Positions 6,103 to 23,376 of a DNA stretch of 64,000 nt are shown here, piece by piece; the stretch's first letter is position 1; the number at the start of each line of letters is the position of its first letter. The notes beneath the pieces are model-generated. The model was given only the letters and a program-made list of their open reading frames with translations. It was not told where the DNA came from and ran no database searches. Where the stretch lies: the NCBI GenBank assembly GCA_001603805.1, contig LUZY01000010.1, positions 62,001 to 126,000 on the forward strand, written 5' to 3'. Both the position numbers and the translations under genes were made by a program. This DNA is from Deferribacterales bacterium Deferri_01 (GTDB taxonomy: Bacteria; Chrysiogenota; Deferribacteres; Deferribacterales; Geovibrionaceae).

Positions 6103-6741
6103 CTACTTGAGAGATTTTATTGCGTCAGCGTATGAAGATGCACCAAAAACATAGCTTCCCGCCACGACAGCACCACAACCTGCGTCAGCAAGAATATTTA
6201 CATTTTTGTCTGTAACTCCGCCGTCAACTTCTATTATGAGATCAGGATTAAGAGCTTGTTTCATTTCAGCAAGTTTTGCCACCTTGCTGACTGAGCTTTC
6301 GATAAACTTCTGACCGCCGAATCCCGGGTTCACAGACATAATTAAAACCATATCAAGATACGGGAGAATTTCCTCAAGGGCAGAAACCGGAGTATGAGGA
6401 TTAAGAGACACACCCGCCTTACAGCCGTGAACTTTGATCTCGCTCACTGTTCTGTGAAGGTGTGTGCATGCTTCATAATGCACAGTGATAAGGTTTGAGC
6501 CTGCATCAGCGAAGTCTTTGATATATCTGTCAGGATCGATGATCATAAGATGCACGTCAAAAGGCTTCCGGGTGGTTTTGCGAAGATGTTTCACCACAGG
6601 TGCGCCGAAGGTGATATTAGGCACAAATACGCCGTCCATGACATCAAGGTGGATCCAATCCGCCCCGCCGTCGTCAATGGCTTTTATCTCTTCTGCCAGT
6701 CTCGAAAAATCTGCGCTTAATATAGAAGGTGCAACTATCAT
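6103..6741 (-). CDS. rpe: Ribulose-phosphate 3-epimerase
   Basis: The 212-residue protein matches the ribulose-5-phosphate epimerase TIM barrel along its full length. It opens with APSILSADF. The metal-binding and catalytic segments are HLDVMDGVFVPNI, FDVHLMI, MSVNPGFGGQKF and the final VDGGVTDKN with its catalytic Asp. It interconverts D-ribulose-5-phosphate and D-xylulose-5-phosphate in the pentose-phosphate pathway, in the cytoplasm. It is transcribed divergently from the lytic transglycosylase gene, with 108 bp between the two starts. There is no evidence of an operon on the downstream side, where the hairpin repeats lie. Confidence 0.96.
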   Translation of the reverse strand: MIVAPSILSADFSRLAEEIKAIDDGGADWIHLDVMDGVFVPNITFGAPVVKHLRKTTRKPFDVHLMIIDPDRYIKDFADAGSNLITVHYEACTHLHRTVSEIKVHGCKAGVSLNPHTPVSALEEILPYLDMVLIMSVNPGFGGQKFIESSVSKVAKLAEMKQALNPDLIIEVDGGVTDKNVNILADAGCGAVVAGSYVFGASSYADAIKSLK

Positions 6742-21851: not shown

Positions 21852-21859
21852 AATCTGTC

Positions 21860-22060
21860 TTTACAATAAAAAATTCTCCTTCCATGGGAATTTTTTATAC
21901 ACGCTCACGCCGTGATAAACACGGCTTCGCTACGCACGGCGTGCCCCCATCTGTCTTTACAATAAAAAATTCTCCCTCCATGGGAATTTTTTATACACGC
22001 TCGCGCCGTGATAAACACGGCTTCGCTACGCACGGCGTGCCCCCATCCATGGGGGCAAAG
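21860..22060 (+). repeat. Modular hairpin repeat array 3 (two core units)
   Basis: Two cores at 21899-21942 and 21995-22038 have the pattern ACACGCTC-CG, hairpin GCCGTG-ATAAA-CACGGC, then TTCGCTACGCACGGCGT. The stem sequence differs from array 2 but the flanking linkers are the same. Each core is preceded by an AAAAATTC/GAATTTTT hairpin whose loop contains CTTCCATG or CTCCATG. The array ends with GCCCCCAT-CC-ATGGGGGC near 22038-22056. The segments CTGTCTTTACAATAAAAAATTC recur in both units, about 96 bp apart. There is no gene in this 315-bp interval. Confidence 0.9.
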
Positions 22061-22077: not shown

Positions 22078-22114
22078 AGCTTACATGTATCTGCCGACTG
22101 CAAGTGCCACGGCT
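22078..22114. repeat. 37-bp direct repeat, right copy (in DAHP synthase 3' end)
   Basis: This is the genuine copy overlapping the stop codon of the DAHP synthase gene, identical to 21815-21851. The 226 bp between the two copies is entirely hairpin array 3. Confidence 0.9.
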
Positions 22115-23097
22115 CTCATTTCACCCATAAGCTGAATGAAGTGTTCGGGGCTGATGGTCTGTGCTGCATCGCTCCATGCTTTATCAGGTTCGGGATGAAC
22201 TTCTATTATCACACCGTCTGCGCCAACAGCTACAGCAGCCTTGGAAAGAGCGGAAACATACTGCCTGTGACCGCCGGAATGGCTGGGATCTATGATTATC
22301 GGAAGATGGGACTTATCCTTAACAACAGGAACACAGCTTATATCAAGTGTATTTCTTGTTGCGGTCTCAAATGTTCTTATACCTCTTTCACAAAGGATAA
22401 CTCTCTGGTTTCCTTCACTTAATATATATTCTGCCGCCATAAGGAATTCTTCTATTGTTGTGGACATTCCTCTTTTCAGCAGGACAGGTTTATCCGTTTG
22501 CCCCAGCATGGTGAGGAGAGCGAAGTTCTGTATGTTGCGTGCGCCTACCTGAAACATATCTGTGTATTTGTACACAAGTTCAACATTTCTCGGATTTACA
22601 ACCTCCGTACAAATAGGAAGTCCTGTTTCCTGCCTTGCCGCTGCAAGGTATTTCAGCCCCTCTTCGCCATGTCCCTGGAAGGCATATGGGCTTGTTCTGG
22701 GCTTGAAAGCACCGCCACGGAGTATTTTTGCACCTGCCGCTTTGACCATCTGTGCGGAACGGACTATCTGCTCTTCTGATTCCACAGAGCATGGACCTGC
22801 GATTATGGGAATTTCTCCGCCGCCGAATTTTACTCCGCATACGTCAACTATTGATGTTTCAGGTTTAACTTCTTTACTGGCGAGCTTGTAAGGTTTGCTG
22901 ATAGGAACTATGTTATCGACACCGGGCATTTCAGAAATAACGCATACACTGTCCTTTTTGACATTAGCGCCCACAAGTCCGATAACGTTTCTTTCCTTTC
23001 CGAAGATGACGTGAGGACTGAAACCAAGCTGTTCCGCTCTTGCCACCACGTCATTAAGATGTTGTTCTTCTGCGTCCATCCTCATTACTACTATCAT
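22081..23097 (-). CDS. aroF: 3-deoxy-7-phosphoheptulonate (DAHP) synthase
   Basis: A 338-residue type I-beta DAHP synthase. It condenses phosphoenolpyruvate and erythrose-4-phosphate, the first step of the shikimate pathway. Residues 1-70 form the ferredoxin-like regulatory domain seen in the Thermotoga enzyme, which confers feedback inhibition by Tyr/Phe. The catalytic barrel follows: PIIAGPCSVES, GGAFKPRTSPYAFQG, GARNIQNF, LLKRGM and IIDPSHSGGHR, including the metal-binding Cys and His. Upstream lie a Phe/Tyr-rich leader peptide and an intrinsic terminator, so expression should respond to aminoacyl-tRNA-Phe/Tyr supply. The ribosome site CGGAGG lies just before the ATG. Its 3' end is duplicated beyond the hairpin array. 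Confidence 0.95.
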   Translation of the reverse strand: MIVVMRMDAEEQHLNDVVARAEQLGFSPHVIFGKERNVIGLVGANVKKDSVCVISEMPGVDNIVPISKPYKLASKEVKPETSIVDVCGVKFGGGEIPIIAGPCSVESEEQIVRSAQMVKAAGAKILRGGAFKPRTSPYAFQGHGEEGLKYLAAARQETGLPICTEVVNPRNVELVYKYTDMFQVGARNIQNFALLTMLGQTDKPVLLKRGMSTTIEEFLMAAEYILSEGNQRVILCERGIRTFETATRNTLDISCVPVVKDKSHLPIIIDPSHSGGHRQYVSALSKAAVAVGADGVIIEVHPEPDKAWSDAAQTISPEHFIQLMGEMRAVALAVGRYM

Positions 23098-23155
23098 AAT
23101 TTTCCTCCGAAAATTTTCGGCGGCAGGAGAGAGAAAAGACCCCTTATGCGGACAG

Positions 23156-23193
23156 AAAAAAAAAGGCCGCGGGGCTTTCTGCTGCCCGCGGCC
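23156..23193 (-). terminator. Attenuator terminator in the DAHP synthase leader
   Basis: On the minus strand GGCCGCGGG pairs with CCCGCGGCC across a loop with GCAGCAGAAAG, followed by nine T residues. It lies between the Phe/Tyr leader peptide and the DAHP synthase start, so it would end transcription before the gene unless an alternative fold forms. The loop's GCAGCAG can pair with CTGCT at the end of the leader peptide, a possible antiterminator. Confidence 0.85.
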
Positions 23194-23230
23194 GTGTTAT
23201 TTTATACAAGTCCTGTATTTTAACTACACC

Positions 23231-23308
23231 TTAAGCAGCTTCTCCAAAGAAGAAGTAAAAATAATAGCTGCTAAAAAAGAAGTTAAAATAAGCCTTTACA
23301 TTTTTCAT
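23231..23308 (-). CDS. Phe/Tyr-rich leader peptide of DAHP synthase
   Basis: This 25-codon open frame starts MKNVKAYFNFFF and continues with two Ser, then YYFYFFF and GEAA. Eight of 25 codons are Phe and four are Tyr, closely packed and just upstream of an intrinsic terminator. This is the layout of ribosome-mediated attenuation, as in the E. coli pheA leader. AGCAGCT within the Ser/Tyr codons and AGCTGCT at the end are complementary, giving a 1:2 hairpin that a ribosome stalled on Phe/Tyr codons would block. Start context: GAGGAG lies 13 bases upstream. A TTGACA/CATTAT pair (17 bp) overlaps this start, so the promoter could also lie further upstream. Confidence 0.85.
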   Translation of the reverse strand: MKNVKAYFNFFFSSYYFYFFFGEAA

Positions 23309-23376
23309 GGAGACTATAATGCTCCTCGGTTTGGAGTATGTCAATATATTATTTTGAACGTGACGTAAATTAATTG

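Follow-up and report, generated by a model that had tools for sequence, protein, structure and literature searches.

Ribosome-mediated attenuation ahead of a DAHP synthase gene has been described for Corynebacterium glutamicum, where the leader peptide aroR, containing Phe-Tyr-Phe, precedes the gene aroF; in the accessible text of the two reports this attenuation depends on Phe, and the availability of Tyr is without effect (PMC11802643, PMC4046766). The locus analysed here resembles aroR/aroF in that a leader peptide with both Phe and Tyr lies directly before a DAHP synthase gene. It differs in that 12 of its 25 leader codons are aromatic, instead of only Phe-Tyr-Phe, and in that it belongs to a different phylum. 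C. glutamicum aroF probably also encodes another type of DAHP synthase than the one found here; the original paper on aroR attenuation is Neshat 2014. The enteric leaders of pheA (pheL) and pheST combine a Phe-rich peptide with a terminator, an antiterminator and ribosome stalling, according to the available part of a recent account (PMC11802643); they control other genes, and leaders of the type described here look leaderless. The first-pass annotation of this DNA had called joint attenuation by Phe and Tyr at this step unusual outside enteric bacteria. This comparison was misplaced, as the DAHP synthases of E. coli are described in the accessible text of the same account as controlled by TyrR/TrpR, and the known attenuated case is that of C. 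glutamicum (PMC11802643).

Leaderless leader peptides have also been reported. In the available parts of the respective papers, the trpL RNA of Sinorhizobium meliloti has the leader ATG as its 5' end (PMC7298713) and a leaderless start is assumed for the leader of C. glutamicum ilvBNC (PMC11857589). Both resemble in this respect what is predicted for the present leader, and differ from it in carrying codons for Trp or branched-chain amino acids and in controlling the corresponding operons instead of DAHP synthase. In its accessible portion, a survey of Actinobacteria reports that Phe and Tyr operons had no conserved RNA structures (PMC1262725). Our literature search, which lay mostly outside subscription papers, yielded no DAHP synthase attenuator outside C. 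glutamicum, and hence none in Deferribacterota or planctomycetes. Attenuation of DAHP synthase and leaderless leader peptides are thus each known, and there is weak evidence that their combination in these phyla is new. The probable attenuator described below is of a known kind, with a leaderless start as the likely variant; of more interest is the wider family, on account of its members with Trp.

Leader peptide gene and terminator

The window, that is, the whole stretch of 64,000 nucleotides that was analysed, contains a DAHP synthase gene which, to judge from the sequence, is with high probability preceded by a ribosome-mediated transcription attenuator. The gene and the main elements upstream of it are:

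22081..23097, minus strand: DAHP synthase gene (338 aa; PRK08673 / TIGR01361; DAHP_snth_FXD domain; single-gene unit)
23104..23108, minus strand: GGAGG, ribosome-binding site of the DAHP synthase gene, as read
23156..23164, minus strand: T tract of the terminator, nine T, as read
23165..23193, minus strand: hairpin of the intrinsic terminator, formed by segments 3 and 4, -21.2 kcal/mol, 37 nt past the leader stop
23231..23308, minus strand: leader peptide gene, ATG at 23308 and TAA at 23233-23231, 25 codons with 8 Phe and 4 Tyr

The first-pass annotation had proposed a 25-codon frame with eight Phe and four Tyr codons upstream of DAHP synthase, and this was exact when the ORF and its coordinates were rechecked. 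Its translation, read on the minus strand, is MKNVKAYFNFFFSSYYFYFFFGEAA. The short ORF is rich in codons for products of the pathway, a property kept in 24 of 24 orthologues; four of its 12 control codons are Tyr codons, two of them consecutive. The leader RNA folds better than shuffled sequences (z -2.90). The perfect GC-rich terminator with nine T before DAHP synthase was also borne out. Its stem, GGCCGCGGG/CCCGCGGCC, consists of nine perfect G+C pairs (23193-23165) and is followed by the T tract at 23164-23156. A simple terminator scan of the window did not list the hairpin at 23193-23165 because its loop exceeds the 3-8 bases of the scan. Terminators were present in all 35 leaders of the first set, nearly always 24-37 nt past the leader stop, those of L029 and L055 having been placed by hand. 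The terminator lies between the leader and the gene, and its helix itself covaries. The leader very probably controls the single-gene unit at 22081..23097. The encoded enzyme is a DAHP synthase of the Thermotoga type with a ferredoxin-like regulatory domain (matches to NCBIfam PRK08673 and TIGR01361), and 1rzm, which we take to be the Thermotoga-type DAHP synthase, is among its closest solved relatives.

Conservation in the order and phylum

A match at 1e-30 or better was found in 52 of 59 relatives. Upstream regions were scored by a rule that asks for a short ORF in which some stretch of 10 residues contains at least five F/Y/W and, after it, a terminator. All 23 orthologous upstream regions in the order, each of them read in its entirety, scored, and a truncated 24th (L167) also has the leader and the terminator. 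Among the controls, the rule was satisfied by one of 255 dinucleotide shuffles, one of 45 cyanobacterial loci and none of 22 other DAHP synthase loci (1/67 control loci). None of the four loci examined, out of many matches, for DAHP synthases of the second type scored, and three of 12 extra regions were positive. Absence of the leader frame from relatives had been named at the outset as grounds for refuting the attenuator; the Phe-rich leader and the terminator are kept in 24 of 24 orthologues of the order.

In the best 16-residue stretches of these 24 leaders, Phe occurs in all, Tyr in 23 and Trp in none; Phe outnumbers Tyr 192 to 62, and L010 is the leader without Tyr. Among close relatives, aromatic residues were lost 5 times in 191 comparisons of codons, and at other codons the amino acid was changed in 80 of 352. 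All three leaders of family f10, which belongs to the same phylum and is presumably the Chrysiogenes group, contain Phe, Tyr and Trp. The three f10 loci (L027, L029 and L030) also have a second terminator-like hairpin between attenuator and gene, as if the attenuators were in tandem. In family f5, which has a more divergent DAHP synthase, the leaders of L168 and L169 end in NYFFYGWY and NNYFFGWY, with Trp. No leader was found at L036 and L037, though their DAHP synthase is 72-73% identical. These two are MAG contigs, one labelled Thermodesulfovibrionales, and their DAHP synthase is nested among those of Deferribacterales; perhaps the gene was transferred or the contigs are mislabelled.

Pairing of the leader segments

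Three segments of the minus strand take part in the putative switch:

23266..23288, minus strand: segment 1, within the Phe/Tyr codons; predicted to pair with segment 2 if not covered by a ribosome (fold and duplex)
23217..23239, minus strand: segment 2, spans the leader stop; 23239-23228 pairs with segment 3 (duplex and covariation)
23181..23192, minus strand: segment 3, the terminator 5' arm and the start of the loop, target of segment 2 (duplex and covariation)

The pairing of AGCAGCT (23272-23266) with AGCTGCT (23240-23234) suggested earlier is possible and was confirmed. The switch pairing suggested with it stood as far as the existence of an antiterminator is concerned; CTGCT with AGCAG in the terminator loop turned out not to be the best register, which is longer and extends into the terminator 5' arm. 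The best antiterminator pairs GCTGCTT (23239-23233) with GGGCAGC (23187-23181) and GGT (23230-23228) with GCC (23192-23190). For segments 1 and 2 of the window locus, 10 of 200 shuffles pair as well, compared with 0-1 of 200 at L005-L007, and in all 12 leaders of the window's family, f1, no more than 10 of 200 shuffles are as good. Across the 35 loci this level (at most 10/200) was reached for segments 1 and 2 in 14, the other 21 being no better than shuffles, and for segments 2 and 3 in 24. The 11 loci with more shuffles as good for segments 2 and 3 include all three of f10, in which segment 2 sits further downstream than the stretch that was tested. At L001, 7 of 31 segments taken from other families pair equally well in the 2:3 combination.

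Covariation of the 2:3 pairing was assessed in three alignments, A2, A3 and A4, the single 23-row alignment A1 having been set aside because two families pair in another register. Since the tested structures were derived from the same sequences, they are somewhat favoured in this test, in which 88.3% of 120 cells were paired in A2 (15 rows), compared with at most 51.3% in slid versions, and 8 cells were changed on both sides (0/500 shuffles). In A4, made up of nine planctomycete rows, 91.0% of cells were paired (14/500 shuffles). The eight rows of A3 had 95.0% paired, yet covariation was weak (60/500 shuffles).

Folding was then considered with a ribosome in place. A ribosomal footprint reaching 13 nt beyond the A-site codon was assumed in folds in which the transcript ended before the terminator 3' arm and the ribosome was placed at each aromatic codon. 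In 31 of 35 leaders, upstream RNA held segment 3 wherever among the aromatic codons the ribosome was stalled; each of the other four had a single codon as exception. Stalls at Tyr codons gave the same fold as stalls at Phe codons. When the ribosome was instead placed at the stop codon and the full hairpin was present, no more than 3 nt were held upstream in the 35 leaders. For a stalled ribosome and a complete hairpin, the minimum-energy fold of the window leader contained the antiterminator at none of its 12 aromatic codons, and in 24 of 35 leaders there was likewise no aromatic codon at which it did; in planctomycete leaders the antiterminator often remains the best fold even with the 3' arm complete. 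As the terminator of the window is the more stable structure once its 3' arm is complete, the switch must act kinetically. Equilibrium folding was accordingly rejected as proof of the switch, failing for Deferribacterales, where the terminator is favoured. A ribosome-dependent antiterminator that excludes the terminator is supported by covariation and by the folds stopping before the 3' arm; equilibrium folding of the whole leader favours the terminator.

Predicted promoter and start of the leader transcript

A predicted promoter lies immediately upstream of the leader peptide gene:

23316..23321, minus strand: -10 box CATTAT, 17-nt spacer, 7 nt before the ATG
23339..23344, minus strand: TTGACA, -35 box of this promoter, 36 nt before the ATG

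In the first set, 27 of 35 leaders have TTGAC[A/T] at a distance of 35-37 nt ahead of an in-frame ATG, namely 18/23 of Deferribacterales, 9/9 of planctomycetes and 0/3 of f10. As a control, a box at 33-39 nt was found at one of 77 ORF starts in the window (at least 100 codons) and at 7 of 2350 ATGs. Of 54 leaders in a wider set, 42 have the box 34-39 nt before the ATG and were classed as leaderless-type. Three members of this class, all from the window's genus, carry a Shine-Dalgarno core, which lies 13 nt away, and the remaining 39 have none in range; six of the other 12 leaders have one, and in genus g3 there are five leaders with an ordinary UTR and GGAG/AGGA. The conserved distance between -35 box and ATG places the predicted transcription start at the ATG. 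The leader mRNA is apparently leaderless, with a predicted start no more than about two bases away from the ATG at 23308.

No other obvious leaderless leader peptide was recognised in the window by promoter spacing. In the organism's own genome the pattern had 85 matches, compared with 54 in a reversed control, and the first 30 loci, when read, contained no evident leader peptide. A 212-aa ORF at 6741 of the window (minus strand) has TTGAC[A/T] 34 nt before its ATG and may be leaderless; from its first residues we take it to be ribulose-phosphate 3-epimerase-like.

Proposed mechanism and alternative explanations

Conservation, covariation and geometry together make a strong case for a leader peptide and attenuator ahead of DAHP synthase. 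From the leader, the terminator, the conserved aromatic codons, the covarying 2:3 pairing and the promoter-to-ATG spacing, all of which can be read in the sequence, we infer the following course of transcription start, stalling and readthrough. RNA polymerase would start at or next to the leader ATG, and a ribosome would load on the leaderless end and translate the 25 codons. With plentiful charged tRNA-Phe (and tRNA-Tyr) the ribosome would reach the stop codon and cover segment 2, so that the terminator could form and the DAHP synthase gene would remain untranscribed. If Phe (or Tyr) were short, the ribosome would stall in the aromatic run, covering segment 1 and leaving segment 2 free; segment 2 could then capture the terminator 5' arm before the 3' arm is made, and transcription would continue into the gene for DAHP synthase. 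Translation would thereby directly govern the first step of aromatic biosynthesis, in phyla in which amino acid control has hardly been studied.

It is conceivable that the terminator is constitutive or the ORF a decoy, the TTT codons coming from a pyrimidine-rich, T-rich stretch, and TTT is indeed the commonest aromatic codon (240/501). However, the remaining aromatic codons are supplied by TTC, TAT, TAC and TGG, aromatic residues are kept while the codons vary, and the stop codon, the spacing and the antiterminator are all kept. With one of 255 shuffles scoring and aromatic residues lost in 5 of 191 comparisons, chance or a T-rich artefact was rejected and is most improbable. Just as little credit can be given to a T-box or metabolite riboswitch in place of ribosome stalling. 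Terminator/antiterminator switches before amino acid genes are common to these elements and to attenuators, but the conserved unit here is the peptide frame, and a comparison of the window and 20 related loci with the leader and riboswitch families of Rfam, T-box included, returned nothing at the curated cut-offs except tRNA. The T-box or riboswitch was rejected on this lack of an Rfam match. The enteric-type leader families, of which the one for enteric Phe leaders is named Phe_leader, likewise had no match in the window or the 20 related loci.

The two other alternatives leave attenuation in place and modify its details. The leader might have a longer 5' UTR with GAGGAG (23327-23322) as Shine-Dalgarno sequence and a promoter-like site at 23380-23351, in which case attenuation would be real and the mRNA not leaderless. 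This second promoter-like site, the GGAG that stands 13 nt from the ATG in the three genomes representing the window's genus and the ordinary UTRs of the five g3 leaders speak for it. However, 13 nt is a long Shine-Dalgarno spacing, 39 of 42 leaderless-type leaders lack GGAG/GAGG/AGGA in range, and in 27 of 35 leaders the distance of 35-37 nt from -35 box to ATG is maintained, and we consider a longer UTR unlikely. A stronger case can be made for the sensing of Phe alone, with Tyr codons as tolerated replacements that have no regulatory role. The proposal that Phe and Tyr act together is partly supported, Phe being in excess of Tyr by 192 to 62 over 24 leaders and one leader doing without Tyr; for C. 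glutamicum aroR, too, with its Phe-Tyr-Phe, the available text reports that limitation of Phe matters and that of Tyr does not (PMC11802643). Against this, the order keeps Tyr in 23 of its 24 leaders and the planctomycete set in 25 of 26; in the window Tyr makes up four of the 12 control codons, two of them in a row, and stalls at Tyr codons fold like those at Phe codons. Sensing of Phe alone is therefore a serious possibility, although we do not prefer it to a leader that reads both amino acids.

Related leaders in planctomycetes

Eight of 11 named planctomycete loci scored under the rule, and L046 was added by eye; it fails the terminator rule on the fold criterion, yet was counted in the residue composition. 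In the planctomycete class of G059, taken to be Phycisphaerae, 17 of the 48 loci examined among the matches listed scored. L115-L117 duplicate other loci and were left uncounted. Of 26 planctomycete leaders, all have Phe, 25 have Tyr and 25 have Trp, as in FFFGYFWF, YWFAYFYFF and RFWFYYF. Because codons for Trp, Phe and Tyr occur together, the pathway could be opened by a lack of any one of the aromatic amino acids. The leaders form a natural series from Phe only through Phe/Tyr to Phe/Tyr/Trp, either apparently leaderless or with Shine-Dalgarno sequences. It could be used to study how several amino acids are read by one leader peptide and why a leaderless start is so frequent among leaders of this sort.

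A tree of 97 rows was constructed without L142 and L147-L166 and with 7 of the 45 cyanobacterial loci. All 47 leader-bearing rows fell within one branch of 68 rows (support 97/96), with none among the 29 rows outside, and at least nine gains or losses of the leader are required inside this branch. One old origin with losses is therefore allowed, not proven. Tentatively, there may be an ancient lineage of attenuators of Thermotoga-type DAHP synthase in Deferribacterota, a related class and the planctomycete class, mostly leaderless and acting as an OR gate on the charging of Phe, Tyr and Trp tRNA, from which the window's order would have dropped Trp. If so, the shikimate pathway would be opened throughout such a lineage by shortage of any aromatic amino acid.

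Other features of the genome

The genome encodes a second DAHP synthase, 52% identical to that of the window, in a cluster with the order pheA, hisC-like, DAHP synthase, tyrA and aroA, the last named by reading. No aromatic leader was found before this second DAHP synthase gene in its pheA-tyrA-aroA cluster. Just downstream of the DAHP synthase gene of the window, at 21853-22044, there are two tandem copies, 98% alike, of a 96-nt repeat. It is an interspersed, palindrome-bearing repeat with 52 matches in the organism's own genome.
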